A DNA stretch of 29,110 nucleotides, from the IMG/VR virus record IMGVR_UViG_3300042470_000435, positions 1-29,110 of that record, one strand, 5' to 3'. A program made the translations under genes and the position numbers. This stretch comes from a virus. The notes beneath the pieces are model-generated. The model had not been told where the DNA came from, did no database searches, and saw nothing but the letters and a program-made list of their open reading frames with translations. This document shows positions 8,619 to 28,734 of this stretch, piece by piece. How positions within the stretch are numbered: the first letter of the stretch is position 1; each line of letters begins with the position of its first letter.

Positions 8619-8627
8619 ATAACAAAA

Positions 8628-8819: not shown

Positions 8820-9182
8820 ATGGCAGCACCAAATTTAATTAACATTAGTTCAGTTACCGGTAAAATAACTGGTAACGTTCTAACCACCAGCAATTCCACT
8901 TTAGTTGTTAATGCTGCATTAAGTAATAATCTAGTAAAGATTAATTCTATAGTTATAGCAAACGCAAATGGAACTTCATCTGCAGATGTGACTGTTGGAC
9001 TACTTAAAAATAATGTTAGTACATTCTTCATATCTTATACAATCAATGTGCCTGCAGACTCAACCTTTGTAGCAGCAACAAAAGACATGCAAATATATCT
9101 TGAAGAAAATGATTCGTTGTATGCTTATGCAAGTGCAAATAGTGTTCTTCAATCCTTAGTTAGTTACGATTTAATACGATAA
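8820..9182 (+). CDS. Small ~120-residue beta-rich virion protein, cassette copy 2
   Basis: 120 residues, a paralogue of the products at 6541 and 11367. Recognisable shared segments are MAAPNLINISSVTGK, INVPADSTFV, YLEENDSLYAYAS and a SYDLIR end. Motifs and length match the copy at 6541 closely, although the sequence has diverged. The ATG follows the upstream TAA without a gap, and the stop overlaps the adhesin ATG (TAATG). No enzymatic motif is visible. A structural or adaptor role is inferred from its conserved place between stem and adhesin. Confidence 0.8.
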   Translation: MAAPNLINISSVTGKITGNVLTTSNSTLVVNAALSNNLVKINSIVIANANGTSSADVTVGLLKNNVSTFFISYTINVPADSTFVAATKDMQIYLEENDSLYAYASANSVLQSLVSYDLIR

Positions 9183-10867: not shown

Positions 10868-10874
10868 GTTTTAA

Positions 10875-11141
10875 ATGGGATCAAGATCAAGGTACGTTGC
10901 AAATTTTGTAGTATCCAATGCTGATATTTCGGCACTATACTCTGCCAACATAATTGAATCAACTAATTTATTTTATACTAATGCAAGAGCACGAACATCA
11001 ATAACTTTAACATCAAACACCGGTGATGGTACTTACGATAATTCAACAGGCGTAATAAATATTACAAGAAGCAACACTGAGGATTGGGGTCTAATTACTG
11101 GTGCTATAGATTCAACAGACGATTTCGGGAGTATCGCCTAA
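10875..11141 (+). CDS. Short fibre-stem protein (repeat module only)
   Basis: 88 residues. It starts RSRYVANFVVSNADI, a variant of the head module of the stems at 4960 and 8628, followed by one repeat (NLFYTNARARTSITL, GDGTYDNSTGVINIT). It ends with DWGLITGAIDSTDDFGSI, two half-repeats of a D-(W/F)-G-x-I motif that I associate with marine phage structural proteins. It lacks the hydrophobic C-terminal tag, which is instead on the next, overlapping gene. The two genes together correspond to one stem in the other cassettes. The stop overlaps the next ATG (TAATG), which looks like a normal junction rather than a frameshift. Confidence 0.75.
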   Translation: MGSRSRYVANFVVSNADISALYSANIIESTNLFYTNARARTSITLTSNTGDGTYDNSTGVINITRSNTEDWGLITGAIDSTDDFGSIA

Positions 11142-11356
11142 TGGCTAAACAAATTCAATTAAGACGTGGTACAACAACACAGCATAATACTTTTACTGGT
11201 GTTGCTGGAGAAGTTACTGTTGATACTGATCTTAATACACTAAAAGTACATGATGGCACATCTGCCGGTGGAACTCGACTTGCTAAATATAGTGAAGTCG
11301 CCAGTGCTGCAACTACAGGTAAAGCGATCGCAATGTCATTAATTTTCGGATTTTAA
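11141..11356 (+). CDS. Small Mtd_N-like fibre protein with stem C-terminal tag
   Basis: 71 residues from the ATG in the TAATG overlap. A longer frame opens further upstream but lies inside the previous gene, and only the 11141 start begins with the domain MAKQIQLRRGTT. That start, with GEVTVDTDLNTLKVHDG, resembles the N-terminal domain of the phage major tropism determinant (Mtd_N family), used to attach or trimerise fibre proteins. The C-terminus GKAIAMSLIFGF is the hydrophobic tag found at the end of the other stems. It therefore supplies the second half of a split stem in cassette 3. The domain assignment is by recognition of the motif and is not tested. Confidence 0.75.
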   Translation: MAKQIQLRRGTTTQHNTFTGVAGEVTVDTDLNTLKVHDGTSAGGTRLAKYSEVASAATTGKAIAMSLIFGF

Positions 11357-11366
11357 AGGTTAAGAA

Positions 11367-11768
11367 ATGCCGAATCCTAATATAGTTAGCGTAACTTCCA
11401 TTAAAGGAGGTACAGCATATTTAACACCCACGGATACTACAGCAAACGCTGCCTGGAGATATGATGGTACTACAGCTTTAACTGGATTGAACCCCGGAAC
11501 AAGTAATGTACATAAAATAGATAGCATTGTTGTTTCTAATTTAACCGGTAATACTGTCCCTGCTAGTGTTGCAATAAGTAATAACGCAACGTTTGCTAGC
11601 GGAACACCTTTTTATCTGGCGTATCAAATTAATGTGCCACCTAACGCATCTTTGATTGTTACTGATAAGACAACTTCTTTTTATGTGACAGAAAATCAAT
11701 CAGTGGGCGTAACTAGCAATACAGGTAGCGCATTATCTTTTGTGGCATCATTCGAATTAATCACTTAA
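11367..11768 (+). CDS. Small beta-rich virion protein, cassette copy 3
   Basis: 133 residues, the longest and most diverged of the three paralogues (with those at 6541 and 8820). It keeps a start like M-x-x-PN, then INVPPNASLIV, DKTTSFYVTEN and a closing SFELIT. The extra length is an insertion of roughly a dozen residues (WRYDGTTALTG region) before the shared core. A GGTTAAG-like ribosome site lies 5-10 bases upstream of the ATG. No known catalytic motif is present. A structural adaptor role is inferred from position. Confidence 0.78.
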   Translation: MPNPNIVSVTSIKGGTAYLTPTDTTANAAWRYDGTTALTGLNPGTSNVHKIDSIVVSNLTGNTVPASVAISNNATFASGTPFYLAYQINVPPNASLIVTDKTTSFYVTENQSVGVTSNTGSALSFVASFELIT

Positions 11769-11771
11769 TTA

Positions 11772-14270
11772 ATGTCTATACATAGATATACTGGCGGAAT
11801 AATATCCGCCGTCGGTCCTACAGTTGATGCTGCTCAAGCGAGTGGCGTATGGACTCTTGCCAAACAGTTTTATTATAAGGGTAGAAATTTATGGCCCGGA
11901 CCAACTGTTGAATATTTAGTTGTTGCTGGAGGCGGAGGTGGTGGAACCGGTTATTCTAGCGGTGGAGGTGGTGGCGGTGGAGGTGCCGGAGGATATTTAT
12001 ATGGTACCAATTTTTCCGTCAATACCGGATTAACTTATGTAGTGACAGTTGGGTCTGGAGGTTCAGGAGCAACATATAGTGGTTCAGTTGGAAACAGCGG
12101 TAAACAAGGAACTAATTCCTCTTTCTCGTCTATTATATCTGTAGGTGGTGGTGCAGGAGGAGGCGTAGATCATGGTGTTAGTTCTACTCCATGGACAGGT
12201 GGTAATGGAGGATCTGGAGGTGGTGGTGGAACTTATGGAGGTGTCCCTTCCTTTACACTTGGATCTAAAGGTATACCTGGGCAAGGTAATACTGGTGGTA
12301 ACGGGGGTTTTAGTATAGGTGGGGGCGGTGGCGGTGCTGGAGGCAACGGTGCTAGTTCTCCTAGTTCCGGGGGTGGATCGGGTTTAGCAAATAGTATTTC
12401 TGGTAGTTCAGTTACTTATGCTACAGGAGGAAGTAATTCAGGTGGCGCTTCTGCATCTAATAATACAGGTAATGGTGGAGCTGCAGGACAATCTAGCACT
12501 CCTGGCGGTTCAGGCGGCTCTGGTGTAGTTATTCTTCGTTATCTTACTGGCACTATGAATGCTATAGGTGGTACAGTAACAAGATCAGGTGGTTATACTA
12601 TTCATACCTTTAATTCAACAGGTATGTTTCAAATTGCTCCTTCAGGTTATCAGTTTGTTTATCAAGAATTTACAACTTCAGGTTCATGGACATGCCCAAT
12701 AGATGTGTCATCTGTTGACTACTTAGTCGTAGCAGGTGGCGGAGGTGGACAACATAATAGAGCAGGCGGCGGCGGGGCTGGGGGATTAAGATATGGTTCT
12801 GGATTAGCTGTTCAATCGGGTAATACATATTCTATTACGGTTGGTTCAGGCGGTTCAGGTGGTATTATGCCGTCAACAACAGCAACAGCTGGCGGCAATT
12901 CTTCTTTTCATACTATTACTGCTAATGGTGGGGGTAGAAGTGGTGAATTGGGTGAAAAAGGATCCAATGGTGGATGTGGGGGAGGAGCTGGTTCTGGTGG
13001 GCATGCTAATTTTGGAATAATACCTCAACCTGGAGGATTAGGAAATGTGCCGTCAACCTCACCTTCACAAGGCAATAATGGTGGACAGAATTTCACATCA
13101 GGCCCACAATATTCAGAAGTCAGAAATACTGGAGGTGGCGGAGGAGCTGGGCAAGTAGGATTGGGATTAAATGCTGGTCCATCAATGAGACCTGATGGTG
13201 GTAATGGTATAGCTTTAGTTATTTCTGGTAATTCTGTTTATTATGCCGGAGGCGGTGGAGGTGGCGCTGGAGCGGCTGCCCCTGCATCTCCAGCATATCC
13301 TTCAGCTGGTGCAGGTAATGGAGGTTTAGGTGGAGGTGGCGCTGGAGGAACAATTGGTTCTCCTGGCGCATCAGGCACTTCAGGCACAGCTAATACAGGA
13401 GGGGGTGGTGGCGGCGCCGGCGATAGCCCGTATGGACCTGGTGGTTCAGGTGGTTCTGGTATCGTAGCTCTTCGTTATTTAATACCACCTACTAATAAAG
13501 TAGCAATATTTACAACTTCAGGAAAATGGACAGCCCCGGTCGGTGTTAATCAGGTCGAATACTTAGTAGTTGCTGGAGGCGGTGCCGGGGGTGCTTTATA
13601 CGGCGGTGGCGGTGGCGGTGGTGGATTTAGAATAGGGACAGGATTTACAGTTACTGCAGGTAATACATATACCATTACAGTGGGTGCTGGAGGCACCGCT
13701 AGTCCCGATCAAACAACAACAGCTGGAATAAGTGGTTCAAATTCTACATTCTCTACAATTACTTCTAATGGCGGTGGAGGTGGTGGCGCAGGAAATAACT
13801 CGACTGGAAGAAATGGTGGGTCTGGCGGCGGTGGCGGTGGTTACGGTACTACTTCTGGGGGTACAGGTAATATACCAAATACTTTCCCCTCTCAAGGCAA
13901 TAACGGCGGCAACGGAGTAACACTGCAAAAAATTGGTTCCGGTGGCGGAGGAGCAGGGGAAACAGGGTTTAATGGTAACAGCAGTGCAGCTGCGGGTAAG
14001 GGTGGCAACGGTACTACATCAAGTATAAGCGGAACTAGTGTAACTTATTCCGGTGGCGGGGGAGGCGGATGCGATGGCTCTTCTCCTGGAGGTACTGCAG
14101 GTGGTGCCGGTGGTGCGGGCGGAGGTGGAGGCGGTGGATTTGCATCTTATCCAGGCACCGCATCAGGCACCTCGGGGACATCTAATACTGGCGGTGGAGG
14201 CGGCGGTTCTGCTCAAGTTGGTGTTTCTGGTGCCGGTGGTTCTGGAATCGTAATACTTAGATGGAGTTAA
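11772..14270 (+). CDS. Glycine-rich adhesin, three modules (largest)
   Basis: 832 residues. The N-terminal segment (QASGVWTLAKQF...NLWPG) is followed by three glycine-rich modules beginning near residues 44, 295 and 576. Between modules 1 and 2 is a linker with GGTVTRSGGYTIHTF, as seen in other glycine-rich phage and bacterial surface proteins. Each module has YLVVAGGG, a (V/I)TVG(S/A)GG strand and a GGSGIV(I/A/V)LRY end; modules 2 and 3 carry PSQGNNGG. The protein ends LRWS, and its Trp-Ser codons supply a GGAG for the next gene. It is the third gene of cassette 3. The likely role is a distal adhesin; unlike most fibre genes here, it includes isolated cysteines (WTCP, GGCGG, GGGCDG). Confidence 0.83.
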   Translation: MSIHRYTGGIISAVGPTVDAAQASGVWTLAKQFYYKGRNLWPGPTVEYLVVAGGGGGGTGYSSGGGGGGGGAGGYLYGTNFSVNTGLTYVVTVGSGGSGATYSGSVGNSGKQGTNSSFSSIISVGGGAGGGVDHGVSSTPWTGGNGGSGGGGGTYGGVPSFTLGSKGIPGQGNTGGNGGFSIGGGGGGAGGNGASSPSSGGGSGLANSISGSSVTYATGGSNSGGASASNNTGNGGAAGQSSTPGGSGGSGVVILRYLTGTMNAIGGTVTRSGGYTIHTFNSTGMFQIAPSGYQFVYQEFTTSGSWTCPIDVSSVDYLVVAGGGGGQHNRAGGGGAGGLRYGSGLAVQSGNTYSITVGSGGSGGIMPSTTATAGGNSSFHTITANGGGRSGELGEKGSNGGCGGGAGSGGHANFGIIPQPGGLGNVPSTSPSQGNNGGQNFTSGPQYSEVRNTGGGGGAGQVGLGLNAGPSMRPDGGNGIALVISGNSVYYAGGGGGGAGAAAPASPAYPSAGAGNGGLGGGGAGGTIGSPGASGTSGTANTGGGGGGAGDSPYGPGGSGGSGIVALRYLIPPTNKVAIFTTSGKWTAPVGVNQVEYLVVAGGGAGGALYGGGGGGGGFRIGTGFTVTAGNTYTITVGAGGTASPDQTTTAGISGSNSTFSTITSNGGGGGGAGNNSTGRNGGSGGGGGGYGTTSGGTGNIPNTFPSQGNNGGNGVTLQKIGSGGGGAGETGFNGNSSAAAGKGGNGTTSSISGTSVTYSGGGGGGCDGSSPGGTAGGAGGAGGGGGGGFASYPGTASGTSGTSNTGGGGGGSAQVGVSGAGGSGIVILRWS
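14263..14266 (+). promoter_or_regulatory. Shine-Dalgarno GGAG supporting a TTG start
   Basis: GGAG is formed by the Trp-Ser codons (TGG AGT) ending the upstream adhesin and sits 7 bases before the TTG at 14274. It supports TTG rather than the internal ATG at 14340 as the start. Confidence 0.65.
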
Positions 14271-14273
14271 ATT

Positions 14274-15938
14274 TTGGATTATCCTGGTAAGATTATATCA
14301 AGAGCTAATATAGAACCGACACTTTATGTTGCATCGGGAATGTGGACTCTATCTCAAGCAGCAGCATACACTCAAGCTGGTCTCTGGCCTGGTACAGGTT
14401 TCAGAGTTATACAATCTTTTACTGCATCTGGTTCATGGACAGCACCTGAAGGTGTTACACAAGTAGATTATCTTGTAGTAGCTGGCGGTGGAGGTGGTGG
14501 TGGAGCTTTAGGGAATGGTGAAACAGGTGGAGGCGGTGGTGCCGGAGGCCTAAGATATGCTACAGGTTTCCCTGTTATAGCCGGAAATACGTATACTATA
14601 ACTATTGGCGGCGGTGGGGCAGGATCAAGTCCAGCTACAAATGGTAGTAATACAACCTTTGATACTATTAGCTCAACAGGCGGTGGACGAGGGGCAGGAA
14701 GAACAGGTTCCTCTCCTTATGCATCTTACACAGCCAATCCAGGTGGTTCTGGAGGCGGTGGTAGTAGATCCAATGTTACAGGTGCAGCAGGAAATGTTCC
14801 TTCATTTAGTCCATCCCAAGGTAATAACGGCGGAAATGGTGGACCTGGAGCAAATAGCGGCGGAGGTGGGGGTGGTTCTCAACAAATAGGATTTTCAGGG
14901 GAAACAAATATAGGAGGTGCTGGAGGTAATGGCACTACATTAACTATTTCAGGAAGTTCTTCTACGTATTCAGGTGGCGGTGGAGGAGCAGGCCCAAGTG
15001 TGGCTGGATCAGGTGGAACAGGTGGTGGAGGTGCTGGTGCTTCTGGAACGGGTAGTGATGGCACAGCTGCTACAACTAATACAGGGGGCGGAGGTGGTGG
15101 TGCTATTGCTTTAGTTGAAGGAAGTTTAACTTATCGAAGCGGTGGGGCTGGCGGCTCGGGCGTTGTTATCCTATCATATTTAATTCCTCGAACAAAGAAA
15201 CGTACAATATTTTATACTTCAGGTAGTTGGACTGCTCCACCTGGAATTACTTCAGTAAATTATCTCGTTGTTGCTGGGGGTGGTGGTGCTAGAGGTATTG
15301 GTGGTGGTGGAGCAGGTGGTTTTCTAACAGGAACAAATTTAGCAGTAACTGCAGGAAATACATATATAGTAACTGTAGGAGCAGGTGGTAGTGGTGCAAG
15401 CGCTACTAACGGAGGCAACTCTGTATTTTCTACAATTACTTCTGTAGGGGGTGGTGCAGGAGGAGCAGGTGAGCCGTCATCTACAGGTCAAGCAGGAGGT
15501 TCCGGAGGAGGCGGAGGTTTCAATAGTAGTCAACCAGGAACTGTTTATTCAGGTGGTCCAGGTACTGCAGGACAAGGGAATAGTGGCGGATCAGGTAGAT
15601 ATGATTTAACACCTTTTGGTGGTGGAGGCGGAGGCGGTGCAAGTTCAGCTGGCACTAGTCACGGTGGTCCAGGAACAGCAGCAGGTAGCGGTGGAGCAGG
15701 ATTATCATCTACTATCTCCGGCATTGCTACTACTTATGCAGGTGGAGGTGGTGCAGGTGGTCGAGGTATACCTTCAGCAGGAACCGGTGGTGCTGGTGGT
15801 GGGGGCGCTGGACAAATAACTCCAGGAGCAACTCCTTCGGATGGAACAACAAACACTGGCGGTGGCGGTGGCGGCGGTGCTATTAATGCTACAGGTGGCC
15901 AAGGTGGTTCAGGTATAGTAATTATTACATGGAGTTAA
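14274..15938 (+). CDS. Glycine-rich adhesin, two modules, TTG start
   Basis: 554 residues from a TTG codon. The N-terminus (IISRANIEP...VASGMWTLSQAA...LWPG) aligns with the first ~40 residues of the three other adhesins, and starting at the later ATG would remove most of that conserved segment. Modules begin near residues 43 (SFTASGSWTAP) and 309 (YTSGSWTAPPG). They contain AGNTY(T/I)(I/V)T(I/V)G, and the first has PSQGNNGGNG. The end is GSGIVIITWS. It directly follows another adhesin with no stem or small protein between them, as if cassette 3 gained a duplicated adhesin. Receptor binding is inferred. Confidence 0.82.
   Translation: MDYPGKIISRANIEPTLYVASGMWTLSQAAAYTQAGLWPGTGFRVIQSFTASGSWTAPEGVTQVDYLVVAGGGGGGGALGNGETGGGGGAGGLRYATGFPVIAGNTYTITIGGGGAGSSPATNGSNTTFDTISSTGGGRGAGRTGSSPYASYTANPGGSGGGGSRSNVTGAAGNVPSFSPSQGNNGGNGGPGANSGGGGGGSQQIGFSGETNIGGAGGNGTTLTISGSSSTYSGGGGGAGPSVAGSGGTGGGGAGASGTGSDGTAATTNTGGGGGGAIALVEGSLTYRSGGAGGSGVVILSYLIPRTKKRTIFYTSGSWTAPPGITSVNYLVVAGGGGARGIGGGGAGGFLTGTNLAVTAGNTYIVTVGAGGSGASATNGGNSVFSTITSVGGGAGGAGEPSSTGQAGGSGGGGGFNSSQPGTVYSGGPGTAGQGNSGGSGRYDLTPFGGGGGGGASSAGTSHGGPGTAAGSGGAGLSSTISGIATTYAGGGGAGGRGIPSAGTGGAGGGGAGQITPGATPSDGTTNTGGGGGGGAINATGGQGGSGIVIITWS
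15931..15934 (+). promoter_or_regulatory. Shine-Dalgarno GGAG inside the adhesin's Trp-Ser codons
   Basis: The terminal TGG AGT TAA of the adhesin gives GGAG 5 bases before the ATG at 15940, the same arrangement as at 14263. Confidence 0.6.
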
Positions 15939-15939
15939 T

Positions 15940-16197
15940 ATGCAAAGTAAGATATATAGATTATATGGTATAGATACAGCAATGGAAATGCTTCGTCCTG
16001 GAGCAAAATGGGAAATTTCCAACACAACCTTTACCAGATGGGAAGATCCAAGACCATGTCCTACCTGGGATGAAGTGATGGATACCATGGATAAAATTAA
16101 ACAATTTGAAGATTCAGTCAATACTATTTGGTTACCAGAACAGCATGCTCAGATAACCGGACAACAGGAGATGATTGAGAAAGCGATTAATGGATGA
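15940..16197 (+). CDS. Conserved small phage protein of unknown function (DPRPCPTW motif)
   Basis: 85 residues. It begins with LYGIDTAMEMLRPGAKWEIS and contains FTRWEDPRPCPTWDEV followed by a helical stretch, a layout I have seen in short proteins encoded next to tail-fibre genes of marine phages. They may act in fibre assembly, but I cannot assign a function. The C-terminal half is charged and probably helical. Its end overlaps the next gene by four bases (ATGA), so it is likely made together with the dioxygenase at 16194. Confidence 0.72.
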   Translation: MQSKIYRLYGIDTAMEMLRPGAKWEISNTTFTRWEDPRPCPTWDEVMDTMDKIKQFEDSVNTIWLPEQHAQITGQQEMIEKAING

Positions 16198-16796
16198 GAG
16201 TACATAATTTATTTCCGACACCAATCGGATTTTTTGACATTGGCAGAGAGTTCACTAAAAAAGAATTAGATTTTATTAATGAACTTGAACAGCGCCCTAA
16301 TATGGGTAATACAACAAGTAAAAATTCTTATGTTCTTGAAGATAAAAAATTAAAAGGAATAAAAGAATTTGTAGAGCAAAGTTTGCACATATATTTGTCT
16401 ACAGTGTATGTACCAAGAAATGATCTTAGTTTAAAAATTACTCAATCTTGGTTTAATTATACTAAACCCGGACAATATCATCACAAACATGCTCATCCAA
16501 ATTCATTTGTATCTATGGTATTATACATAAATACAGATGAGAACGACAAGATATTTTTCTTTAAAGAAGGTTATACGCAGATCAAAATACCAACGGACAC
16601 GTTTAATGATTGGAATAGTGACTCCTGGTGGTTTGAAGCGAAACACGGGCAACTAATTATGTTCCCATCTTCTTTAACACATCTTGTCGAAACAAAATCT
16701 GGTTTGGACACCAGAATTAGTTTAGCTATAAATACTTTTCCGATGGGATATATCGGAGAGGACAACGATTTAACCGGGCTTCATTTAAAGGAGTAG
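16194..16796 (+). CDS. Putative 2-oxoglutarate/Fe(II)-dependent dioxygenase (1)
   Basis: 200 residues. The N-terminal LFPTPIGFFDI and the core ITQSWFNYTKPGQYHHKHAH-PNS (residues ~82-104) are typical of a 2OG-Fe(II) oxygenase family common in marine T4-like phages. Probable iron ligands are H99 or H101 in the HKHAH segment and H163 in the SSLTHLVE strand; R174 (DTRIS) would bind 2-oxoglutarate. The enzyme would couple 2-oxoglutarate decarboxylation to oxidation, often hydroxylation, of a substrate. The substrate is unknown, and candidates include virion fibre proteins given the location. An exact late-promoter-like octamer lies near its 3' end. Family assignment is good; the reaction is not known. 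Confidence 0.82.
   Translation: MRVHNLFPTPIGFFDIGREFTKKELDFINELEQRPNMGNTTSKNSYVLEDKKLKGIKEFVEQSLHIYLSTVYVPRNDLSLKITQSWFNYTKPGQYHHKHAHPNSFVSMVLYINTDENDKIFFFKEGYTQIKIPTDTFNDWNSDSWWFEAKHGQLIMFPSSLTHLVETKSGLDTRISLAINTFPMGYIGEDNDLTGLHLKE
16727..16734 (+). promoter_or_regulatory. Possible internal late promoter (TATAAATA)
   Basis: This is an exact TATAAATA inside the dioxygenase coding sequence (codons for Leu-Ala-Ile-Asn), 64 bases before the next ATG at 16799. T4 late promoters need little beyond this octamer, so it could fire. Being in coding sequence, it may be chance. Confidence 0.4.
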
Positions 16797-18072: not shown

Positions 18073-18372
18073 ATGTTACGCAACATAGTTATACATGCAG
18101 ATTTTTCAACCCCTGCTAAAGATTTATTTTTATTAAAGAATCATTTGAAAAGAAATAAAATAGAATTTATTGATGCATTTTATCAAGAAGAATATCAAGT
18201 AAAAAGTTTCTTTGCTGGAATGACTACATCATTCGTCAAATATCTTTCCGATAATAATATAGTTATTAGTTGCCCTCTCAAAGACATTGTTATGACTGCA
18301 ATTGATGGTGGGAATCAACAAGTAATAAGAGTGGGTAAAGATTCAATCTTACAAGCAATCACTAACGGTTAA
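18073..18372 (+). CDS. Hypothetical protein
   Basis: 99 residues, not recognised. It begins MLRNIVIHADFSTPAKDLFLLKNHLKRNKIEF and has a mixed alpha/beta look with basic N-terminal and hydrophobic C-terminal halves; no signal peptide or membrane helix is seen. CGGAG lies about 7 bases before the ATG. It sits immediately before the collagen-like gene at 18377 (4-base gap), so it may serve that protein as an assembly partner. That is a guess from position only. Confidence 0.65.
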   Translation: MLRNIVIHADFSTPAKDLFLLKNHLKRNKIEFIDAFYQEEYQVKSFFAGMTTSFVKYLSDNNIVISCPLKDIVMTAIDGGNQQVIRVGKDSILQAITNG

Positions 18373-18376
18373 TTAA

Positions 18377-20350
18377 ATGGCAGGATTTGCATTAAAACGA
18401 ACTATAGTTAATGCAGGTTCATTGACAAGATCCGCTGGAACAAGTGGGTCAATATCATTACCTTTCGGTGTTAGATTGGTTAATGTTTGTCTACTTGGCA
18501 CACCTGGTAATCCCGGTAATGCTGGGTCAAATGGTGTAGCTGGGCCTGGAGGAAATGCAGGTAATTGTGGTAATCCAGGGAGTCCCGGATATAATGGCTC
18601 TGCTGGTAATGCTGGTAACGCAGGTAATCCGGGATCACAAGGAAGTCCAGGAACAAACGGTACCGGAGGTGCAGGAGGAAATGCGGGGAATCCTGGTAAC
18701 AAAGGCAATGATGGTACTAATGGTGCGGGAGGCGCAGGAGGTGCGGCAGGATCGTGTACTCACACTTTCAATAATATAGGTGGAGGTGGAGGAGGAGCTG
18801 GCGGCGGAGGTTGGACAAGTAATTTTAATGATTACAGAGTCGCTAGAACAGGCACTGATGGACTAGCAGGTATTGCTGGGAATTCTGCGCCCGGAGGAGC
18901 ACAAGGATCAGGTGGGCAGGGCATTGGAGGATCTGGTACAGGAGGTAGTACGTCTTTAACAAATGTAACTACTCCAGCAGGAAGCCCTGGAGGAGCAGGA
19001 ACTGCTGGTGCCAATGGTACTGCAGGTTCAGCTGGATCTGGGGCAACTGGAGGTTCCGCGGGCAATGCTGGTAATCCAGGTGCATCTGGCTCACCAGGAA
19101 CTGCTAATCCCGGGACACCAGGTGGTCCTGGAGGTGCGGGAGGTGCTGGATCTCCAGGAGATCCGGGTAATGCTAATCCGGATATGTATGCTCCAAACGA
19201 TTGGCCAGGTAGATTAGGAAGTTCAGGGAGTGCAGGAAGTGCTGGCACTGCTTCGACTTTTGCTAATTTTTCTGGTCCGGGAGGAAATGCAGGTAATGCA
19301 GGAAGCGCTGGCAACGCAGGACAAAAGGGCAATGATGGATACGCAGGCAACGCAGGAGGAGGAGGTGCGGCTGGAAACCCAGGTTCTTCAGGTTCTCCTG
19401 GTAATTGCGGAGTTGGTGGGCCTGGGGGTTTAGGAGAACCTGGTAATAATGGATCAAGTGGAAATAACGGTTCAGCGGGTCCTGGAGGATTGGCTGGTAA
19501 CACAGGTAGCCCAGGGGGTCAAGGTAATGCTGCAAATTTTACGGGGTGTGCCACAGGAGGAGGAGGCGCTACAGGTGGGGTAGGAGCTGGAGCTTGGACA
19601 AGTAATAGTCAAGCCCCATCTTCTGGAACGCAAGGTTTAGGGGGAAATGCTGGAGTAACTAATATACCTGGTAGAGCAGGAGGAAATGCAGGGGTTCCTT
19701 CCACTGCCAATGTTGGTTGTGGAAATTATTATACAGATACTAATGCTTTTTCTTATGCTGCTGGATTTTTTAATTATGGCAATCCTGGTTCTGGTGGATT
19801 AGGTGGTTGTGGAGGTGGTATAGTGGGGAATGCTTTTGGAACATCAAGTGATCCTAAATTTACTCATTTATTCCCAGGGAGTCCTGGATATTGGGTAGCA
19901 GGGGGCGGAGGATCAGGCGGAAATGCTGCAGGAGAAGCAGACATCTTTGGTACTGCATATACTATTTCAGGTAATCCCGGCAACACAGGAGCAGCGGGCA
20001 GTGGGGCTACATCAGCCCCTAATGATTGGCCAGGAAGAACAGGATCAGGAGGAACTCCTGGAAACAATGGAGCCTGCAATACTACTCCTCCAGCTACTTG
20101 GCCTGGAAAAGATGGCTCTCCTGGTTCAGCAGGATCTGAAGGATTCGGTGCTACAGGAGGATCAGCAGGAAATTACGGCGGTCCCGGATATTCAAACGGT
20201 GTGAATGGTTCCGGAGCAACCCCTGGGGGGCCTGGCGGATCAGCTTCTACTGCAACTTATAATTCACAAAAATTAAATTATAGAACAAATTATTCTTATT
20301 CTGTAGCACCATCTACAGGAAGCTTATCTATTTCTTGGAGTAGACAATAA
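18377..20350 (+). CDS. Collagen-like / polyglycine fibre protein
   Basis: 657 residues. The N-terminal ~40 residues form a non-repetitive beta segment (LKRTIVNAGSLTRSAGTSG, then LPFGVRLVNVCLLG). The body has glycine at nearly every third position, in units such as GNAGNPG, GSPGTNG and GAGGAGG. Asn and Ala are more common than in animal collagen, and Pro often precedes Gly. Two larger duplicated landmarks recur: a GGGGGG-WTSN segment (near residues 140 and 400) and APNDWPGR (near 272 and 553), suggesting an internal duplication of roughly 270 residues. The C-terminus is SISWSRQ. It may be a triple helix or a polyglycine-II sandwich. A role as an adhesin or tail fibre is inferred. The following genes include two prolyl-hydroxylase-type dioxygenases. 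Confidence 0.82.
   Translation: MAGFALKRTIVNAGSLTRSAGTSGSISLPFGVRLVNVCLLGTPGNPGNAGSNGVAGPGGNAGNCGNPGSPGYNGSAGNAGNAGNPGSQGSPGTNGTGGAGGNAGNPGNKGNDGTNGAGGAGGAAGSCTHTFNNIGGGGGGAGGGGWTSNFNDYRVARTGTDGLAGIAGNSAPGGAQGSGGQGIGGSGTGGSTSLTNVTTPAGSPGGAGTAGANGTAGSAGSGATGGSAGNAGNPGASGSPGTANPGTPGGPGGAGGAGSPGDPGNANPDMYAPNDWPGRLGSSGSAGSAGTASTFANFSGPGGNAGNAGSAGNAGQKGNDGYAGNAGGGGAAGNPGSSGSPGNCGVGGPGGLGEPGNNGSSGNNGSAGPGGLAGNTGSPGGQGNAANFTGCATGGGGATGGVGAGAWTSNSQAPSSGTQGLGGNAGVTNIPGRAGGNAGVPSTANVGCGNYYTDTNAFSYAAGFFNYGNPGSGGLGGCGGGIVGNAFGTSSDPKFTHLFPGSPGYWVAGGGGSGGNAAGEADIFGTAYTISGNPGNTGAAGSGATSAPNDWPGRTGSGGTPGNNGACNTTPPATWPGKDGSPGSAGSEGFGATGGSAGNYGGPGYSNGVNGSGATPGGPGGSASTATYNSQKLNYRTNYSYSVAPSTGSLSISWSRQ
20337..20340 (+). 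promoter_or_regulatory. Possible Shine-Dalgarno GGAG in Trp-Ser codons
   Basis: TGG AGT near the end of the collagen-like gene gives GGAG 9 bases before the ATG at 20350, similar to the sites at 14263 and 15931. The spacing is at the long end of the usual range. Confidence 0.45.
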
Positions 20351-20640
20351 TGGATTTATCATTTACGCATAAAGTCAAATCTATCAATATTGAGGAAGGT
20401 ACCTTTGTGGTAGAATATATTCCTAATGACCCAGAATTAATTCCTATTTCATATAATTCATATGTATATGAAAAACCTTTTTATGAAATACTCGATCAAA
20501 ATGGTAACCAAGTATACCAAAATCAAGACGATGTGCCTTTTGAAGTTAATTTAGCATATTCAATAGAAAGAGCAGCTCCACTACTTAGATGGAAACGTCA
20601 ACGATTAATGTTAGATAATCTTGATAAATTTGATTTATAA
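20350..20640 (+). CDS. Hypothetical protein following the collagen-like gene
   Basis: 96 residues, acidic in the middle and basic at the end. It starts MDLSFTHKVKSINIEEGTFVVEYIPNDPELIPIS; the centre has several aromatic residues (YNSYVYEKPFYEIL), and the C-terminus has RWKRQRL and LDKFDL. No family is recognised. The ATG overlaps the upstream TAA (TAATG), so it is probably coupled to the collagen-like gene, and it precedes the dioxygenase pair. It could be a fibre chaperone or a minor structural protein; the sequence does not decide. Confidence 0.65.
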   Translation: MDLSFTHKVKSINIEEGTFVVEYIPNDPELIPISYNSYVYEKPFYEILDQNGNQVYQNQDDVPFEVNLAYSIERAAPLLRWKRQRLMLDNLDKFDL

Positions 20641-20645
20641 GGAGA
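20639..20645 (+). promoter_or_regulatory. Strong Shine-Dalgarno AAGGAGA
   Basis: AAGGAGA begins in the upstream stop codon and ends 3 bases before the ATG at 20649. It is one of the two best ribosome sites in the window, the other being that of gp18. Confidence 0.6.
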
Positions 20646-20648
20646 TAT

Positions 20649-21245
20649 ATGAGTAATCCATGTGAATTTGAAAGTTTTATTAGAGTATATGATCAAGCTG
20701 TAAGTAGAGAATTTTGTAAAGGAATCATAGATTATTTTGAATGGTGTTCGCAAAATAATAAAACTTGGGAAAGACCAGACGGCAACAATTCAAAAGAAGA
20801 TGTTTCAGTATCATTAAATCCAATTAATTTTTGGGAAATAGATTTTACGTTTCATAATTTAACTGGTTATATAAATGAATTTAATAATAGTTTTTGGAAC
20901 GTGTGCTATCCTCAGTATTTAAAAGATTTTGACACTTTATCTAGTTTTTCTAAACATTCAATATTAAGTTATAAAATACAAAAAACAATACCATCTGGAG
21001 GATACCATGTTTGGCATTGTGAGAATGGTAATATAGAATTTAGTAGAAGAATAGGTGTTTATATATTATATCTTAATGATGTACCATCAGGAGGTGAGAC
21101 AGAATTCCTACATCAAAGTATAAGAATTCCGCCTAAAGAAGGAACACTAGTAATCTTTCCATCCTCATTTACTCATACCCACAGAGGAAACCCGCCTCTA
21201 AGGGGAACTAAATATATCATGACGGGTTGGATAGAGTTAATTTAA
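20649..21245 (+). CDS. Putative 2OG-Fe(II) dioxygenase (2), prolyl 4-hydroxylase type
   Basis: 198 residues. The C-terminal half has the double-stranded beta-helix signature: HVWHCENG gives H123-x-E125 (a Glu in place of the usual Asp), then YILYLNDVPSGGETEFL, IPPKEGTLVIFPSSFTHTHRG with the distal histidine H176 or H178, and K188 (GTKYIMTGW) as the likely 2-oxoglutarate contact. LxDVxxGGET is characteristic of prolyl 4-hydroxylase-type enzymes. The substrate is unknown; the Pro-Gly-rich collagen-like protein two genes upstream is an obvious candidate. Its stop overlaps the next ATG (TAATG), pairing it with a second dioxygenase. Family assignment is confident, but the substrate is speculative. 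Confidence 0.83.
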   Translation: MSNPCEFESFIRVYDQAVSREFCKGIIDYFEWCSQNNKTWERPDGNNSKEDVSVSLNPINFWEIDFTFHNLTGYINEFNNSFWNVCYPQYLKDFDTLSSFSKHSILSYKIQKTIPSGGYHVWHCENGNIEFSRRIGVYILYLNDVPSGGETEFLHQSIRIPPKEGTLVIFPSSFTHTHRGNPPLRGTKYIMTGWIELI

Positions 21246-21850
21246 TGTCAGTATTTCAATTTTTACCTAATAGACCGTATTATGATTGTTACACATCATT
21301 TGTAACTTGGCAAAATGGATTTACTAATGAAGAGATAGATCAAATAGTTAATTATTGTGATACAAATTTAATTTTAGAAGATGCTGAGGTTGGTGGTAAT
21401 AATATCTATTCAGTGAATCCGGGTATTAGAAGATCTAAAGTTGGTTGGATAAAAAATAATGAAGATACATTTTGGTTTTATAGTAGGTTAGCTTGGATAA
21501 CACGAGAGCTTAATTCAAAATTTTACAATTTTGATTTATATGGATTTGTAGAAGATTTTCAATACACAGTATATAATGATAATGAATCTGGACATTATGA
21601 TTGGCATACCGATTCAAGCCCTAAGGTAGACCTTCCAAGAAAATTAAGTATAGTATTACAACTTAGTTCGCCAGATGATTATGATGGTGGAGAATTAATG
21701 ATTAGACAATCAAGTACTGAAGAAACAGTATATAAAGAAAAAGGATTAATTGCGGGATTTCCTTCATATGTTCAACATAAGGTTAATCCTGTTACTAGAG
21801 GAACTAGAAAAACAATAGTAATATGGTCTGCTGGACCAGCTTTTAGATAA
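21245..21850 (+). CDS. Putative 2OG-Fe(II) dioxygenase (3), PKHD-hydroxylase type
   Basis: 201 residues starting at MSVFQFLPN. An in-frame ATG at 21227 exists, but the TAATG junction at 21245 is the usual pattern in this operon. The motifs are HYDWHTDSS (H121-x-D123, iron ligands), SIVLQLSSPDDYDGGEL, FPSYVQHKVNPVTRGTRKTIVIW (distal H178 and R188 for 2-oxoglutarate). DYDGGEL and QHxVxPVTRGxR are typical of PKHD-type hydroxylases. It is distinct in sequence from the two other dioxygenases here. The substrate is unknown; a virion protein is plausible from the location. It is the last gene before an exact late promoter at 21860. Confidence 0.85.
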   Translation: MSVFQFLPNRPYYDCYTSFVTWQNGFTNEEIDQIVNYCDTNLILEDAEVGGNNIYSVNPGIRRSKVGWIKNNEDTFWFYSRLAWITRELNSKFYNFDLYGFVEDFQYTVYNDNESGHYDWHTDSSPKVDLPRKLSIVLQLSSPDDYDGGELMIRQSSTEETVYKEKGLIAGFPSYVQHKVNPVTRGTRKTIVIWSAGPAFR

Positions 21851-23961: not shown

Positions 23962-24144
23962 ATGAATGGTTTAGATAATGAAAAATTTTTAACTGCAGTA
24001 TTAGATAAAACTGTACAAAAATTAAATGTGTTAAATACTCAAAATATAGTTTTAGAAACACAATTAAAATTTGCTAATGATAAAATTTTGGCACTGGAAA
24101 AGGAATTAAATGACAGCACCAGCAAGCAGACAGAATCTAATTGA
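23962..24144 (+). CDS. Small coiled-coil protein overlapping gp13
   Basis: 60 residues from the ATG at 23962; a longer frame starts inside the upstream gene, but this start follows the TAA by one base. Hydrophobic residues recur at heptad spacing across almost the whole length (AVLDKTVQKLNVLNTQNIVL... and KILALEKEL), so it is likely one coiled coil. A short coiled-coil gene at this place, before the neck gene, is a recurring feature of marine T4-like phages as I know them. Its last 35 bases overlap the start of gp13 in another frame. Function unknown; it could be a fibritin-like or assembly helper. Confidence 0.7.
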   Translation: MNGLDNEKFLTAVLDKTVQKLNVLNTQNIVLETQLKFANDKILALEKELNDSTSKQTESN

Positions 24145-25072
24145 TTATTGTCTCAGACGCCTAGGGCATCCTGTTATAGAAATAAATTTAGATGACGATC
24201 AAATAGAAGATCGCATTGATGATGCACTGCAATTTTGGCGCGAATATCATTTTGATGGTACAGAATTAACATATGTTAAGGCAGAAATAACCGCATCAAC
24301 AATGACATTATCGTCATTAGTAGGTCTGTTATTTACAATTGGGGAAACTCTAACTGGGCAATCATCTGGAGCTACAGCAAAAGTTATTTCTAAAACATCA
24401 TCTACATCTGTAAAGATCGATGTTTTATCTGGTACTTTTACTGCGGGCGAAACGGTAACAGGGAATTCTTCAGGAATTTCGGGAGCACTAGCTGCTTCAA
24501 ACCCTGTTTCTCTAGGTGTAATAGATAATAATTATTTTGACATTTCAGATTCTGTTATTGGAGTAACTAGAGTTTTTCCATTTTCTAATAGATCAAATGG
24601 TATGAATATGTTTGATATTCGTTATCAAATTCTTATCAATGATCTTTATAGTTTAATGTCAACTGATTTAATTTATTATAGCCAAGTTAAAACTCAACTT
24701 GAATTAATAAACCAATTACTAGTAGGTCAAAAACCTATTAGATTTAATAGGCATATGAATAGATTATATGTGGATATGGATTGGGAAGCAGATGGTGTTG
24801 TAGGTGATTATATGATTGTAGAATGTTATCGGATATTAGACCCAGATACATTTACAGATGTATATAATGATATGTTTCTTAAAAGATATGCTACAGCTTT
24901 ACTTAAAAGACAATGGGGTGAGAACTTGAAAAAATTTGCCGGTGTTCAATTACCTGGTGGTGTAACATTAAATGGAGTAGTAATATATCAAGAAGCAATA
25001 GATGAAATAACTAATCTTGAGAGTGAAATGCAAAGTAAATATGAAATACCTCCGGAATTTATTACAGGTTAA
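24110..25072 (+). CDS. gp13: Neck protein gp13 (head completion) with inserted module
   Basis: 320 residues (T4 gp13 is 309). The N-terminal helices (RQNLIDYCLRRLGHPVIEIN, then DDQIEDRIDDALQFWREYH) and the C-terminal part (VGDYMIVECYRILDPDTFTDV, LPGGVTLNGVVIYQEA) are characteristic of T4-like gp13. With gp14 it seals the filled head and receives the tail. Residues ~68-137 look like an insertion (GETLTGQSSGATAKV...GETVTGNSSG), two copies of a GE(T)-TG-SG motif, placed between helices and core. The start at 24110 has AAGGA 5 bases upstream and lies within the previous coiled-coil gene. This anchors the T4 gene order. Confidence 0.9.
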   Translation: MTAPASRQNLIDYCLRRLGHPVIEINLDDDQIEDRIDDALQFWREYHFDGTELTYVKAEITASTMTLSSLVGLLFTIGETLTGQSSGATAKVISKTSSTSVKIDVLSGTFTAGETVTGNSSGISGALAASNPVSLGVIDNNYFDISDSVIGVTRVFPFSNRSNGMNMFDIRYQILINDLYSLMSTDLIYYSQVKTQLELINQLLVGQKPIRFNRHMNRLYVDMDWEADGVVGDYMIVECYRILDPDTFTDVYNDMFLKRYATALLKRQWGENLKKFAGVQLPGGVTLNGVVIYQEAIDEITNLESEMQSKYEIPPEFITG

Positions 25073-25094
25073 TGAGTCTTATCATCTAGGCTCA
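25073..25094 (+). other. Weak hairpin in the gp13-gp14 gap
   Basis: TGAGTC and GGCTCA flank a 10-base loop and could form a 6-pair stem with one G-U pair. There is no following T tract, so a terminator is not supported. The rest of the 69-base gap (to 25141) shows no clear promoter and is the longest non-coding stretch of the window. Confidence 0.25.
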
Positions 25095-25141
25095 TAGCAA
25101 ATAGTACCACCATGTCAATAGAAAGTCTATAGATTTAGGTC

Positions 25142-25903
25142 ATGCCTACCAATTTTTATTTCCAATCAGGCATTCCAATGGGCAGACGTTCAGAAAGTCT
25201 GCTTATGGAAGACCTTATTATCGAATGCCTAAAAATTTATGGTTTCGATACGTATTATATTCCTCGCAAAGAAGAGAATGAAGATTTAATTTTGAACGAA
25301 GATGTTCTTAATAGTTACACCTATGCTCAGCCTTTGGAAATGTATTTGGAAAATGTTGATGGGTTTGGAGGTGACGGTGAACTACTTACCAAATTTGGTT
25401 TGGAAATAAGAGACACAGCAACATTTATAGTATCCAGAAGAAGATGGGATGAAACTATAGCTCAATTTGGTGATACTGTTTTGACAAATAGACCAGCTGA
25501 AGGTGATATAATTTATTTTCCTTTAACGAAATCATTATTTGAAATAAAGAAAGTAGAAGCAAGAGATCCTTTTTTTCAAGTAGGTCAATTATACGTTTAT
25601 AAATTGTATTGTGAACTAATGCAGTACAGCTCAGAAAGATTTGATACAGGTATAGAAGAAATTGATAATCTTACTGCTGAAATTGGTCAAGATATTCAAA
25701 ACTTTGAATTGTTATTAGAAGGAGCAGGATTTAATAATTATAGAATGTTACTTGAATTAGATGTTGAATCTAAAGTTATTTTAGAAGATTATACCATTAC
25801 AACAGTAGATAAAATTGCAGATAATGAATACTTTGATACAGGTATAGAAGATATACTTGATTTTACAGAAAGAAATCCTTTTGGTGAGGTATTTAATAGA
25901 TAA
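25142..25903 (+). CDS. gp14: Neck protein gp14
   Basis: 253 residues (T4 gp14 is 256). NFYFQSGIPMGRRSESLLMEDLIIECLKIYG at the N-terminus, Y(I)PRK with acidic residues, DGFGGDGELLTKFGLEIRD and FIVSRRRWDE are typical of the T4-like gp14 family. It assembles with gp13 on the portal vertex after packaging, forming the neck to which the tail joins. It follows gp13 after a 69-base gap and overlaps gp15 as TAATG. The ATG at 25142 has TTAGGT just upstream, a weak ribosome site. Assignment rests on motif recognition plus gene order. Confidence 0.9.
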   Translation: MPTNFYFQSGIPMGRRSESLLMEDLIIECLKIYGFDTYYIPRKEENEDLILNEDVLNSYTYAQPLEMYLENVDGFGGDGELLTKFGLEIRDTATFIVSRRRWDETIAQFGDTVLTNRPAEGDIIYFPLTKSLFEIKKVEARDPFFQVGQLYVYKLYCELMQYSSERFDTGIEEIDNLTAEIGQDIQNFELLLEGAGFNNYRMLLELDVESKVILEDYTITTVDKIADNEYFDTGIEDILDFTERNPFGEVFNR

Positions 25904-26658
25904 TGTTAAACAGTAAATTCTATTGGGGTACTATCAGAAAAGCAATAGTTGCTTTTGGTAATACCTTTAATAATATCCATATAGACAGAAAAGACGAAAA
26001 TTCAGATGTTATCCAAACTCTGAAGGTTCCTTTGTCTTATGCTCCTACTCAAAAATTCTTGGCAAGAATAAAACAACTTCCTAATCCAGATACTGAAGTT
26101 AGAACTGAAGTTGTTTTGCCTAGAATGTCTTTTGAAATGACATCTATACAATATGACCCTAGTAGAAAGATTGCTCCTACACAAGCTAATAGAGTAAATA
26201 ATACTTCTACAGTAACGCAAACTAAACAGTTTGCACCTGCTCCATATAATATGGGAATATCATTGTATTTATACTCAAGAAATCAACACGATGCATTACA
26301 AATTGTTGAACAAATACTTCCATATTTTAATCCAGATTTTAATTTAACGTTAAAAGCTGTCCCCGACCTAAATATTAAAAATGATCTACCTATTATATTA
26401 GATGGCATAAATTATGAAGATGATTATGAAAATGATTTTATGTCTAGAAGAATGATTATATGGACATTAAATTTTACATTAAAATTAAATTTTTATGGCC
26501 CTGTAGACCGTCAAGGTATTATTCGTACCGCAGTTGCCAATACGTATTCTAATGAAGAATTAACTAACCAGCAAACAGGTTATACAGTCAGTGTTTATCC
26601 AACTACCGCAAAACCAGGAGACACAATAGATTACACTGAAACATTTGAGGATTTTTGA
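25903..26658 (+). CDS. gp15: Tail sheath stabiliser and completion protein gp15
   Basis: 251 residues (T4 gp15 is 272). FYWGTIRKAIVAFGNTFNNI, the strand KVPLSYAPTQKFLARI, LPRMSFEMTSIQYDPSRK and NMGISLYLYSRNQHDALQIVEQI are recognisable features of the family. The protein caps the finished tail tube and sheath and connects to the neck. It lies between gp14 and gp16 as in T4. Start and stop are both overlap junctions (TAATG with gp14, TGATG with gp16), indicating coupled translation. Confidence 0.9.
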   Translation: MLNSKFYWGTIRKAIVAFGNTFNNIHIDRKDENSDVIQTLKVPLSYAPTQKFLARIKQLPNPDTEVRTEVVLPRMSFEMTSIQYDPSRKIAPTQANRVNNTSTVTQTKQFAPAPYNMGISLYLYSRNQHDALQIVEQILPYFNPDFNLTLKAVPDLNIKNDLPIILDGINYEDDYENDFMSRRMIIWTLNFTLKLNFYGPVDRQGIIRTAVANTYSNEELTNQQTGYTVSVYPTTAKPGDTIDYTETFEDF

Positions 26659-27077
26659 TGAAAGATATAGATCAATTGAATTCTATATTCAATTTAGATA
26701 AAAGTGTTAATGAAGAAAAATTACCTATTTCTTTATCTAAAAGTAGTGAGCATGATCAAGAGAATGATTATGATCTAGCAAGACAAACACTTCGTAATTT
26801 AATTATTAAAGGTGAAGGAACTCTTGATGACATGATTAATTTTGCTCGAAATTCAGAACATCCGAGAGCATATGAAGTTACAGGGCAATTGATTAAAACA
26901 ATGGCTGACACAGCTAAAGATTTACTTAATATTCATAAACAAGTTAAAGATATTAAGGGTAAGGAATCAGCCAATCCTCAAATTGGTACTCAGAATAATG
27001 TAGTATTTGCAGGTTCAACAGAAGATCTTTTAAAGATGTTGAACAAGAAAGACGACGGTAAAGTAATTGAGCAATGA
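26658..27077 (+). CDS. gp16: Small terminase subunit gp16
   Basis: 139 residues from the ATG in TGATG; a TTG directly before it would add one residue but is less likely. The central region (YDLARQTLRNLIIKGEGTLDDMINFARNSEHPRAYEVTGQLIKTMADTAKDLLNIH region, residues ~35-95) is helical and matches the coiled-coil core of T4-like small terminases, which form a ring that regulates gp17 and recognises DNA. T4 gp16 has 164 residues. The C-terminal tail (DLLKMLNKK) is a short segment probably for gp17 contact. Its end overlaps the gp17 start by 11 bases. Confidence 0.87.
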   Translation: MKDIDQLNSIFNLDKSVNEEKLPISLSKSSEHDQENDYDLARQTLRNLIIKGEGTLDDMINFARNSEHPRAYEVTGQLIKTMADTAKDLLNIHKQVKDIKGKESANPQIGTQNNVVFAGSTEDLLKMLNKKDDGKVIEQ

Positions 27078-28734
27078 AGATCATTCATACAATGGTAATC
27101 CAAATCTTAAACCGATAGATTACCAACACACCTTCACTGTAGAACAGGTGAGGGAGTTAATGCTTTGTGGTCAGGACCCAATTTATTTTATTGAAACTTA
27201 TTGTAGAATTATATCACTTGATAAAGGTATTGTTCCATTTAAATTATACGATTGTCAAAAAGAAAAAGTAGATGTTATACTTAATAATCGTAAAGTTATA
27301 TTAATGGAAGGCAGGCAGCAGGGGAAAACAATTACTGCCGCTGCTTGTATATTATGGTATACATTGTTTCAATCAAATAAAACAGTTGCAATTCTAGCTA
27401 ATAAATCCTCTGCTGCTCGAGAAGTACTTTATCGTTATCAGATAATGTACGAACTTCTGCCTATATGGATGCAGCAAGGTGTAAAGACATGGAACAAAGG
27501 TGATATTGAATTAGAAAATGGTTGTAGAATATTTACAGCAGCAACAAGTGCTTCTGGTATTCGAGGAAAATCTGTAAACTGGTTATACATTGACGAAGCA
27601 GCAATTATTCCAAATACGGTTGCTGATGAATTTTTTACTTCAGTATATCCAACAATTTCCTCCGGTGAAACTACAAAAATACTTCTTACCTCTACTCCAC
27701 TAGGTTATAATCATTTCTGGAAGTTCTGGAATGAAGCAGAACAGAAACTTAATGGTTTTATTCCATTGTTTATTCCATATTGGAAAATACCTGGTAGAAC
27801 TGAGGAATGGGCAGCAGAGCAAAAAGCAATGCTCGGTGAACTTAAGTTTAATCAGGAAGTATTATGTAAGTTTCTTGGATCATCTAACACTTTAATTAAT
27901 CCAGATGTTATTGGTAGAATGTCTGCCAAAACACCTATATACAGCAAAGATGGATTAGATGTTTTAGAAGAACCACAAAAAGGACATGTATATGCATTAA
28001 TAGCTGATACATCTCGAGGGGTTGGTGGAGACTATTGCGCTTTTACTGTTACAGATATATCTAAGTATCCCTATACAGTTGTAGCAAAATATAGAAATAA
28101 TAAAGTAAGTCCGTTATTATACCCAGACATAATTCATAAGGTAGCTAAGGATTTTAATAAGGCATATGTACTTGTTGAAATTAATGATAATGGACAGCAA
28201 GTAGCCGATTCCCTGTACATGGATCTTGAATATGAAAATATGTTCTTTGTTGGAGCACATTCAAGATCAGGGCAGTATTTGTCTTCTGGTTATACACAAG
28301 GAGCAACATTAGGTGTTAGAACTACCAAGTTAGTTAAGCGTCTTGGTTGTACAGCATTTAAAGGGTTGGTTGAAAATAATAAGTTACTAATACATGATGC
28401 AGAAATTATTTCTGAGATTTCTACTTTCATTGAAGTACGAGGAACACATAAGGCAGATGAGGGTTATCATGATGATTTAGTAATGACATTGGTATTATTA
28501 GGTTGGGCAGCAAACGATCCTTTCTTCAAGGAATTGACAGATAGTAATTTACGAAAAGTATTATTCGAAGACCAAGCTAAAATTATTGAGGAAGAACTTA
28601 CACCATTTGGGTTGATAGATGATGGTTTAACTCCAGAAATACAGACTGAAGTTATAGATTCTGATATTTGGTTTAGAGAAGATCCTCAAGTGCTTATGGA
28701 AAAAATTAGACAAAAACAGCTTGAACGTGTCTAG
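27067..28734 (+). CDS. gp17: Large terminase subunit gp17 (packaging ATPase/nuclease)
   Basis: 555 residues from TTG (T4 gp17 is 610). The TTG start retains the N-terminal NPNLKP and YQHTFTVEQVRELMLCGQDP segment expected of the family; the first in-frame ATG (27160) would remove it. ATPase domain: Walker A-like GRQQGKT at 82-88, Walker B LYIDEAA around 173-179 with catalytic E177, and coupling motif TSTP at 208-211. RNase H-like nuclease domain: D314 in IADTSRG, E371 in LVEINDNG, D469/D470 in YHDDLVM. It packages DNA into the prohead and cuts headful lengths. Its start lies inside gp16, and an out-of-frame ATG at 27074 is not used. Confidence 0.95.
   Translation: MSNEDHSYNGNPNLKPIDYQHTFTVEQVRELMLCGQDPIYFIETYCRIISLDKGIVPFKLYDCQKEKVDVILNNRKVILMEGRQQGKTITAAACILWYTLFQSNKTVAILANKSSAAREVLYRYQIMYELLPIWMQQGVKTWNKGDIELENGCRIFTAATSASGIRGKSVNWLYIDEAAIIPNTVADEFFTSVYPTISSGETTKILLTSTPLGYNHFWKFWNEAEQKLNGFIPLFIPYWKIPGRTEEWAAEQKAMLGELKFNQEVLCKFLGSSNTLINPDVIGRMSAKTPIYSKDGLDVLEEPQKGHVYALIADTSRGVGGDYCAFTVTDISKYPYTVVAKYRNNKVSPLLYPDIIHKVAKDFNKAYVLVEINDNGQQVADSLYMDLEYENMFFVGAHSRSGQYLSSGYTQGATLGVRTTKLVKRLGCTAFKGLVENNKLLIHDAEIISEISTFIEVRGTHKADEGYHDDLVMTLVLLGWAANDPFFKELTDSNLRKVLFEDQAKIIEEELTPFGLIDDGLTPEIQTEVIDSDIWFREDPQVLMEKIRQKQLERV

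Follow-up and report, generated by a model that had tools for sequence, protein, structure and literature searches.

Gly-X-Y fibre genes linked to 2-oxoglutarate oxygenases in T4-like phages: a candidate module for fibre self-modification

Why would a tailed phage carry two genes for prolyl-hydroxylase-like enzymes just behind the gene for a glycine-rich fibre protein? Virus record IMGVR_UViG_3300042470_000435, whose 29,110 bases were analysed as a whole and are called the window here, has such a cassette: a 657-residue protein of what we call the GXX fibre family, one small gene, and two 2-oxoglutarate (2OG)-Fe(II) oxygenases, q9 and q10, related to prolyl 4-hydroxylases (P4H) and to PKHD-type hydroxylases. 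We found that the linkage of fibre and enzyme genes is not due to chance, and consider that the cassette is probably a self-modifying tail-fibre module, in which the enzymes would hydroxylate the Gly-rich arms of the co-encoded fibre. Its parts are as follows.

18073-18372, + strand, 99-residue protein encoded directly 5′ of the fibre gene, shared by the closest cassettes
18377-20350, + strand, GXX fibre protein of 657 residues, with N-terminal beta cap, Gly-X-Y arms and loops, and C-terminal beta cap
18497-18757, + strand, run of 29 Gly-X-Y triplets (residues 41-127), X mostly N or S, Y mostly A, P or G
19241-19285, + strand, STFANFSGPGG motif in mid-chain (at about residues 289-303), which aligns with a beta hairpin predicted for the relative L415
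20350-20640, + strand, 96-residue protein between the fibre gene and the enzymes, conserved in position
20649-21245, + strand, 2OG-Fe(II) oxygenase q9, P4H-like, HxE...H...K
21245-21850, + strand, 2OG-Fe(II) oxygenase q10, PKHD/P4H-like, HxD...H...R

The genes between 18,073 and 21,850 are tightly packed, with 1-base overlaps or gaps of fewer than 10 bases. An original prediction, made from the letters of this DNA, had described the Gly-X-Y-like protein with its Pro-Gly steps, the single small gene and the two dioxygenases of P4H/PKHD type, and this anatomy, with its coordinates, proved correct. It had missed the 99-residue gene, which is a member of the conserved unit, and a third oxygenase at 16194-16796 (see below). 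For the 96-residue protein the only relatives found sit in equivalent cassettes, and it is a possible chaperone.

Linkage of the fibre family to the oxygenases

The closest relatives of q9 (57-72% identity) with upstream sequence had, in every case, a gene for a Gly-X-Y protein immediately before q9 and a q10 as its neighbour, and an alignment-based scan added further loci of equal content (L283, L286-L288, L290-L292, L295, L298 and L300). Among 82 dereplicated q9 loci whose upstream sequence was long enough, all 13 that have a fibre-family gene upstream of q9 carry the q9 and q10 pair, against 8 of the 69 others (p = 5e-10). We also scanned by DNA pattern, blind to the enzymes (21 Gly codons in register, or an Asn-rich Gly-X-Y pattern; 120 loci each). 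For 18 of 19 distinct fibre-family members from these scans the same strand carried an oxygenase of q9 or q10 type no more than 4.5 kb away, a count for which some alternative C-terminal endings were picked after the tables were seen; with a stricter C-terminal motif, set earlier, it was 14 of 15. The lone exception, L423, is a 3.2-kb piece of a 37.6-kb contig that holds exactly one q10, which lies about 2.7 kb 3′ of the fibre gene and is encoded by the same strand. A further two seemingly enzyme-free members were resolved in the same manner on their whole contigs (38-63 kb for the three), each of which holds exactly one q10. In L466 it lies 23 bp behind the fibre gene, and in L361 it follows shortly after a fibre gene that is truncated. 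Moreover, when proteins were classed by residue pattern alone, blind to the enzymes, 26 of 38 GXX proteins with small Y residues had an enzyme within 4 kb, against 10 of 152 other Gly-X-Y proteins (p = 4e-15; near-copies included). Relatives picked by gp14 only gave the same picture: among 31 loci whose upstream sequence reached 6 kb or more, upstream enzymes were present in 3 of 3 with the fibre family and in 2 of 28 without it (p = 0.002).

The original prediction would have failed if the enzymes occurred equally often without collagen-like or Gly-rich genes. The enzyme superfamily is indeed common elsewhere, as in cyanophages, and we rejected q9 and q10 as fibre enzymes in general because of the cyanophage positions and of the 47 of 82 q9 loci that lack a Gly-rich gene. 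The fibre family, by contrast, was not seen without the enzymes, and thus the dependence runs from fibre to enzyme. Since related fibre genes essentially never occur without an enzyme, it is probable that these phages alter their fibres chemically themselves. Around q9-type enzymes, Gly-rich genes were over-represented at the second and third positions upstream (18% and 15%, against 2-3%), and practically none stood downstream. Among the cultured phages searched there was no match to the cassette.

The simplest alternative is that the genes have no functional link and hitch-hike in a mobile fibre-locus cassette. Fibre loci exchange as modules, and several relatives have the cassette in the same place, upstream of the gp13 gene; in L601 and L605 other genes fill the corresponding slot, so that the cassette itself behaves as an exchangeable fibre module. 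The linkage was nevertheless kept through rearranged gene orders (fibre-96aa-q9-q10, fibre-q10-q9, q10-q9-fibre, q9-fibre-q10 and fibre with q10 alone), differing intervening genes and differing enzyme lineages. In the q9 tree two well separated clades are fibre-linked (3 changes, against 20.6 in shuffles), and in the q10 tree the fibre-linked enzymes are spread over several groups (6 changes, against 23.1). Loci L003, L006, L283 and L292 have a q9 from the window's q9 group and a q10 from outside its q10 group. On these trees and gene orders, passive inheritance is hard to reconcile with a linkage that survives order changes and partner exchange, and the three seeming exceptions were all resolved; we regard mere hitch-hiking as very improbable.

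Enzyme motifs and fibre architecture

Both enzymes match PF13640 (q9 51.6 bits, q10 54 bits, cutoff 27). By profile, the nearest solved relative of q9 is the Bacillus prolyl 4-hydroxylase (3itq/5hv0, E = 2e-11), and those of q10 are PKHD-type hydroxylases (3dkq/PiuC, E = 3e-14 to 6e-13), followed by P4Hs. The residues H123, E125, H178 and K188 of q9 and H121, D123, H178 and R188 of q10 are invariant among cassette members and intact in the window; from established knowledge of the superfamily we take them to be the iron and 2OG ligands. As judged by these motifs, q9 has the 2OG-Fe(II) core, iron triad and Lys/Arg for 2OG of a prolyl 4-hydroxylase, and q10 the similarity and the HxD...H...R pattern of the PKHD type. 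Translation of q10 starts more probably at the ATG at 21245, which overlaps the q9 stop codon, than at the TTG at 21227.

The longest Gly-X-Y run of the 657-residue protein spans 29 unbroken triplets, with other runs of 18 and 13, whereas in 300 composition shuffles the longest reached 10. Proline stands before glycine in 37 of 48 cases (14.9 expected), and triplet Pro occupies Y 24 times and X 4 times in about 124 triplets. The family shares an N-terminal cap (PFGV..VN..G; residues 1-40 in the window protein), the mid-chain motif, and at the C terminus a cap that ends near ISWSRQ (about 633-657). Searches with the whole protein (tblastn against phages and a back-translated scan) gave zero matches because low-complexity filtering takes out the protein body. 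PF21722 (Gly_rich_2) gave no match to the 657-residue protein and a weak, sub-threshold one to a single relative. An hhalign comparison of the N-terminal cap with PF21722 returned a probability of 96% with a set picked by a similar pattern; we do not claim this homology, because an unbiased hidden Markov model search with the cap against 5,667 open reading frames retrieved no Gly_rich_2 proteins.

The original prediction called the fibre collagen-like, and in its strongest form that idea makes the Gly-X-Y stretches a true collagen triple helix, a parallel homotrimer stabilised by enzyme-made 4-hydroxyproline as in animals. The 29-triplet run, the Pfam Collagen match (PF01391, 32.2 bits, cutoff 27.2), sequence matches to collagen chains, Pro in Y and the often trimeric state of phage fibres all speak for a helix. 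By the criteria for collagen, the long above-cutoff repeats are present, while frequent Pro in both X and Y is not, X-position Pro being nearly absent. Furthermore, the runs are broken by loops, the mid-chain beta motif and poly-Gly, and in short family members they reach only 9-14 triplets.

Structure prediction points the same way. AlphaFold2 without an alignment gave a predicted local distance difference test score (pLDDT) of 32 for the window protein; the short family member L415 was modelled from an alignment of 11 rows, with caps above 90 and arms of low confidence, and the confident part includes the strands of the N terminus, the mid-chain and the C terminus alike. The L415 model (residues 17-318) was most similar to gp24 of cyanophage Pam3 (7YPX, Z 6.7, which is below 8, root-mean-square deviation 2.5 over 84 residues), whose strands run on into the Gly-rich domain (PMC9608196). 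Next came 7YFW (Z 5.9), with unrelated rows beginning at 5.5; gamma-carboxylase rows (Z about 5) match as beta-sandwiches and were rejected as unrelated. A Foldseek search of the PDB returned nothing significant (best E 0.6), and the predicted viral structures matched were mostly annotated as glycine-rich domain proteins. Because the Z score is moderate, we take the resemblance of L415 to Pam3 gp24 as likely and not as membership. In the model the N- and C-terminal strands lie in one base, aligning together to the Pam3 fibre tip, and hence the chain would go out and return, unlike a collagen rod. The fibre protein is thus probably no collagen rod and may be a Gly-rich tail-fibre tip, as the model of L415 suggests; a genuine triple helix is improbable. 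Of the original enzyme-fibre system, the link is upheld by the conserved linkage, whereas the collagen-like label is made doubtful by the caps, the residue pattern and the model of the relative.

Proposed substrate and modification

The fibre is, with fairly good probability, the substrate of the adjoining enzymes. In a self-modifying module the beta caps would form the base and the Gly-X-Y stretches the extended arms of a fibre or fibre tip; both oxygenases would hydroxylate the arms within the infected cell, before or during assembly, and the hydroxylation could stiffen, protect or re-shape the receptor-facing surface. The target would most likely be Pro in X-Pro-Gly, with Asn at X as the next candidate, and we give Pro about an even chance of being the main hydroxylated residue. 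P4Hs classically act on a Pro in Y that precedes Gly. The median fraction of triplet Pro found in Y was 0.89 in loci with an enzyme and 0.06 in loci without, and the Bacillus P4H favours Y-position Pro (PMC8968730). X-Pro-Gly enrichment was sought in other neighbours of the enzymes and was not found.

Several observations weigh against this proposal. The bias of Pro to Y is confounded with fibre-family identity and may be no more than a trait of this family. Snow-flea-antifreeze-like proteins have Pro before Gly and are not known to go with such enzymes. The iron motif of q9 is HxE and not HxD, in 118 of 120 representatives of its family (24 of 24 fibre-linked, 94 of 96 others). The q9 and q10 trees are compatible with a single origin of the linkage. 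Finally, the cultured cyanophage homologues of q9 and q10 lie at gp23-gp3 or gp5, where no neighbour is Gly-rich, and hence the enzyme superfamily has other substrates.

The last point leads to the alternative that q9 and q10 act on a host receptor, a cell-surface molecule, another virion protein or a nucleic acid, and stay with the fibre because selection favours binding and altering the receptor together. Homologues do occur far from fibres, and cyanophage 2OG oxygenases have been proposed to serve nitrogen signalling and DNA repair (PMC3037559, PMC9602691), though their function is described as not specifically investigated (PMC9602691). Such a target would leave unexplained why the linkage is specific to one fibre family with X-Pro-Gly arms and not general to fibres, and the enzyme profiles indicate peptide prolyl hydroxylases; we consider it unlikely, and retain modification of the co-encoded fibre as the better account.

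The family also offers a natural body swap, which is informative. In L254 (7042-7950) and L248 (7072-7950) a GXX-family N-terminal cap (E = 5e-6) is joined to a body of Pro/Tyr/Asn tandem repeats, NPTVPGNDNYTPYY, which carry VPGN in place of Gly-X-Y; the gene of a q10 enzyme begins 12 bases downstream. A second, rarer association is that of ordinary collagen-like proteins, with Pro in X and Thr, Gln or Lys in Y, near q10-like oxygenases (L265-L271, L123, L161, L186, L457 and L463).

Neighbouring genes, known systems and significance

Equivalents of gp13, gp14, gp15, gp16 and gp17 (neck, tail stabiliser, terminase) follow the cassette, and genes for tail-fibre-like and Gly-rich proteins precede it; the neighbours on both sides thus place it in the tail-fibre locus of an uncultured myovirus of T4-like type. 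The window holds a second unit of like layout, in which the third 2OG oxygenase stands behind another Gly-rich protein. A gene of about 240 residues (..IPEPYPARKLIPEWYKALP..), absent from the window, recurs beside q10 in many cassettes.

24110-28734, + strand, T4-like neck, tail-stabiliser and terminase genes (gp13-gp17 equivalents)
14274-16796, + strand, second unit: Gly-rich protein (PF21722) at 14274-15938, 85-residue gene at 15940-16197, 2OG oxygenase (PF13759) at 16194-16796
L385:9500-10216, L387:4154-4849, L407:9036-9752, L414:4754-5485, L393:4735-5448 and L254:8531-9280, the recurring gene of about 240 residues

Four large Gly-rich PHROG 2295 proteins (573, 561, 832 and 554 residues) follow one another at 6897-15938, each with a small gene (85-133 residues) nearby, and five related tandem genes of 253-359 residues, four of which match PHROG 19111, lie at 15-4921, 5′ of the fibre genes.

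Parts of this arrangement have parallels. The tips formed by Pam3 gp24 and by gp38 of Salmonella phage S16 (7YPX, 6F45) are alike in being about one third Gly and in their place in a phage fibre locus, and probably in a beta base that bears Gly-rich extensions; they have short GGX or poly-Gly motifs, whereas here regular Gly-X-Y arms, often of 20-100 triplets, go with linked hydroxylase genes. Giant viruses are the precedent for virus-encoded collagen modification (PMC9546862): mimivirus has collagens together with L230 and L593 (PMC9546862), PBCV-1 has a prolyl 4-hydroxylase (Eriksson 1999, via PMC9301287), and in both cases a Gly-X-Y or Pro-rich protein and P4H-type enzymes come from the virus. 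Their hosts are eukaryotic and mimivirus L230 is a lysyl hydroxylase/glycosyltransferase, whereas here a tailed phage has a tight fibre-enzyme cassette. The P4H of Bacillus anthracis, the closest solved relative of q9, goes with collagen-like spore proteins and favours Y-position Pro (PMC8968730); it is cellular, without a fibre cassette. The cyanophage 2OG-Fe(II) oxygenases (PHROG 61/81) belong to the same superfamily, with 35-41% identity, but usually lie away from fibre genes. Phage and bacterial GPT/GPQ collagen-like proteins likewise have Gly at every third residue, yet with Pro in X, Thr or Gln in Y and mostly no oxygenase nearby. The literature searches made turned up no phage precedent for a fibre hydroxylation cassette, and a review of phage P4H genes terms their use cryptic (PMC9301287).

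Aquatic T4-like phages carry many 2OG oxygenases of unknown target, and the cassette offers a concrete candidate substrate adjoining its enzymes. If the proposal is true, receptor-binding parts of phages would undergo post-translational modification, fibre maturation would require host oxygen, iron and 2-oxoglutarate, and compact prolyl hydroxylases could be drawn from the cassettes along with the Gly-X-Y substrates that match them. More tentatively, and at somewhat less than an even chance, tailed phages may have a dedicated, oxygen-dependent fibre maturation by linked P4H/PKHD-type enzymes, acting on X-Pro-Gly or Asn in the Gly-rich arms of adhesins, that extends to other T4-like Gly-rich fibres with the layout of Gly-rich gene, small gene and 2OG oxygenase; if so, it would explain in part why aquatic phages are so rich in 2OG oxygenases.

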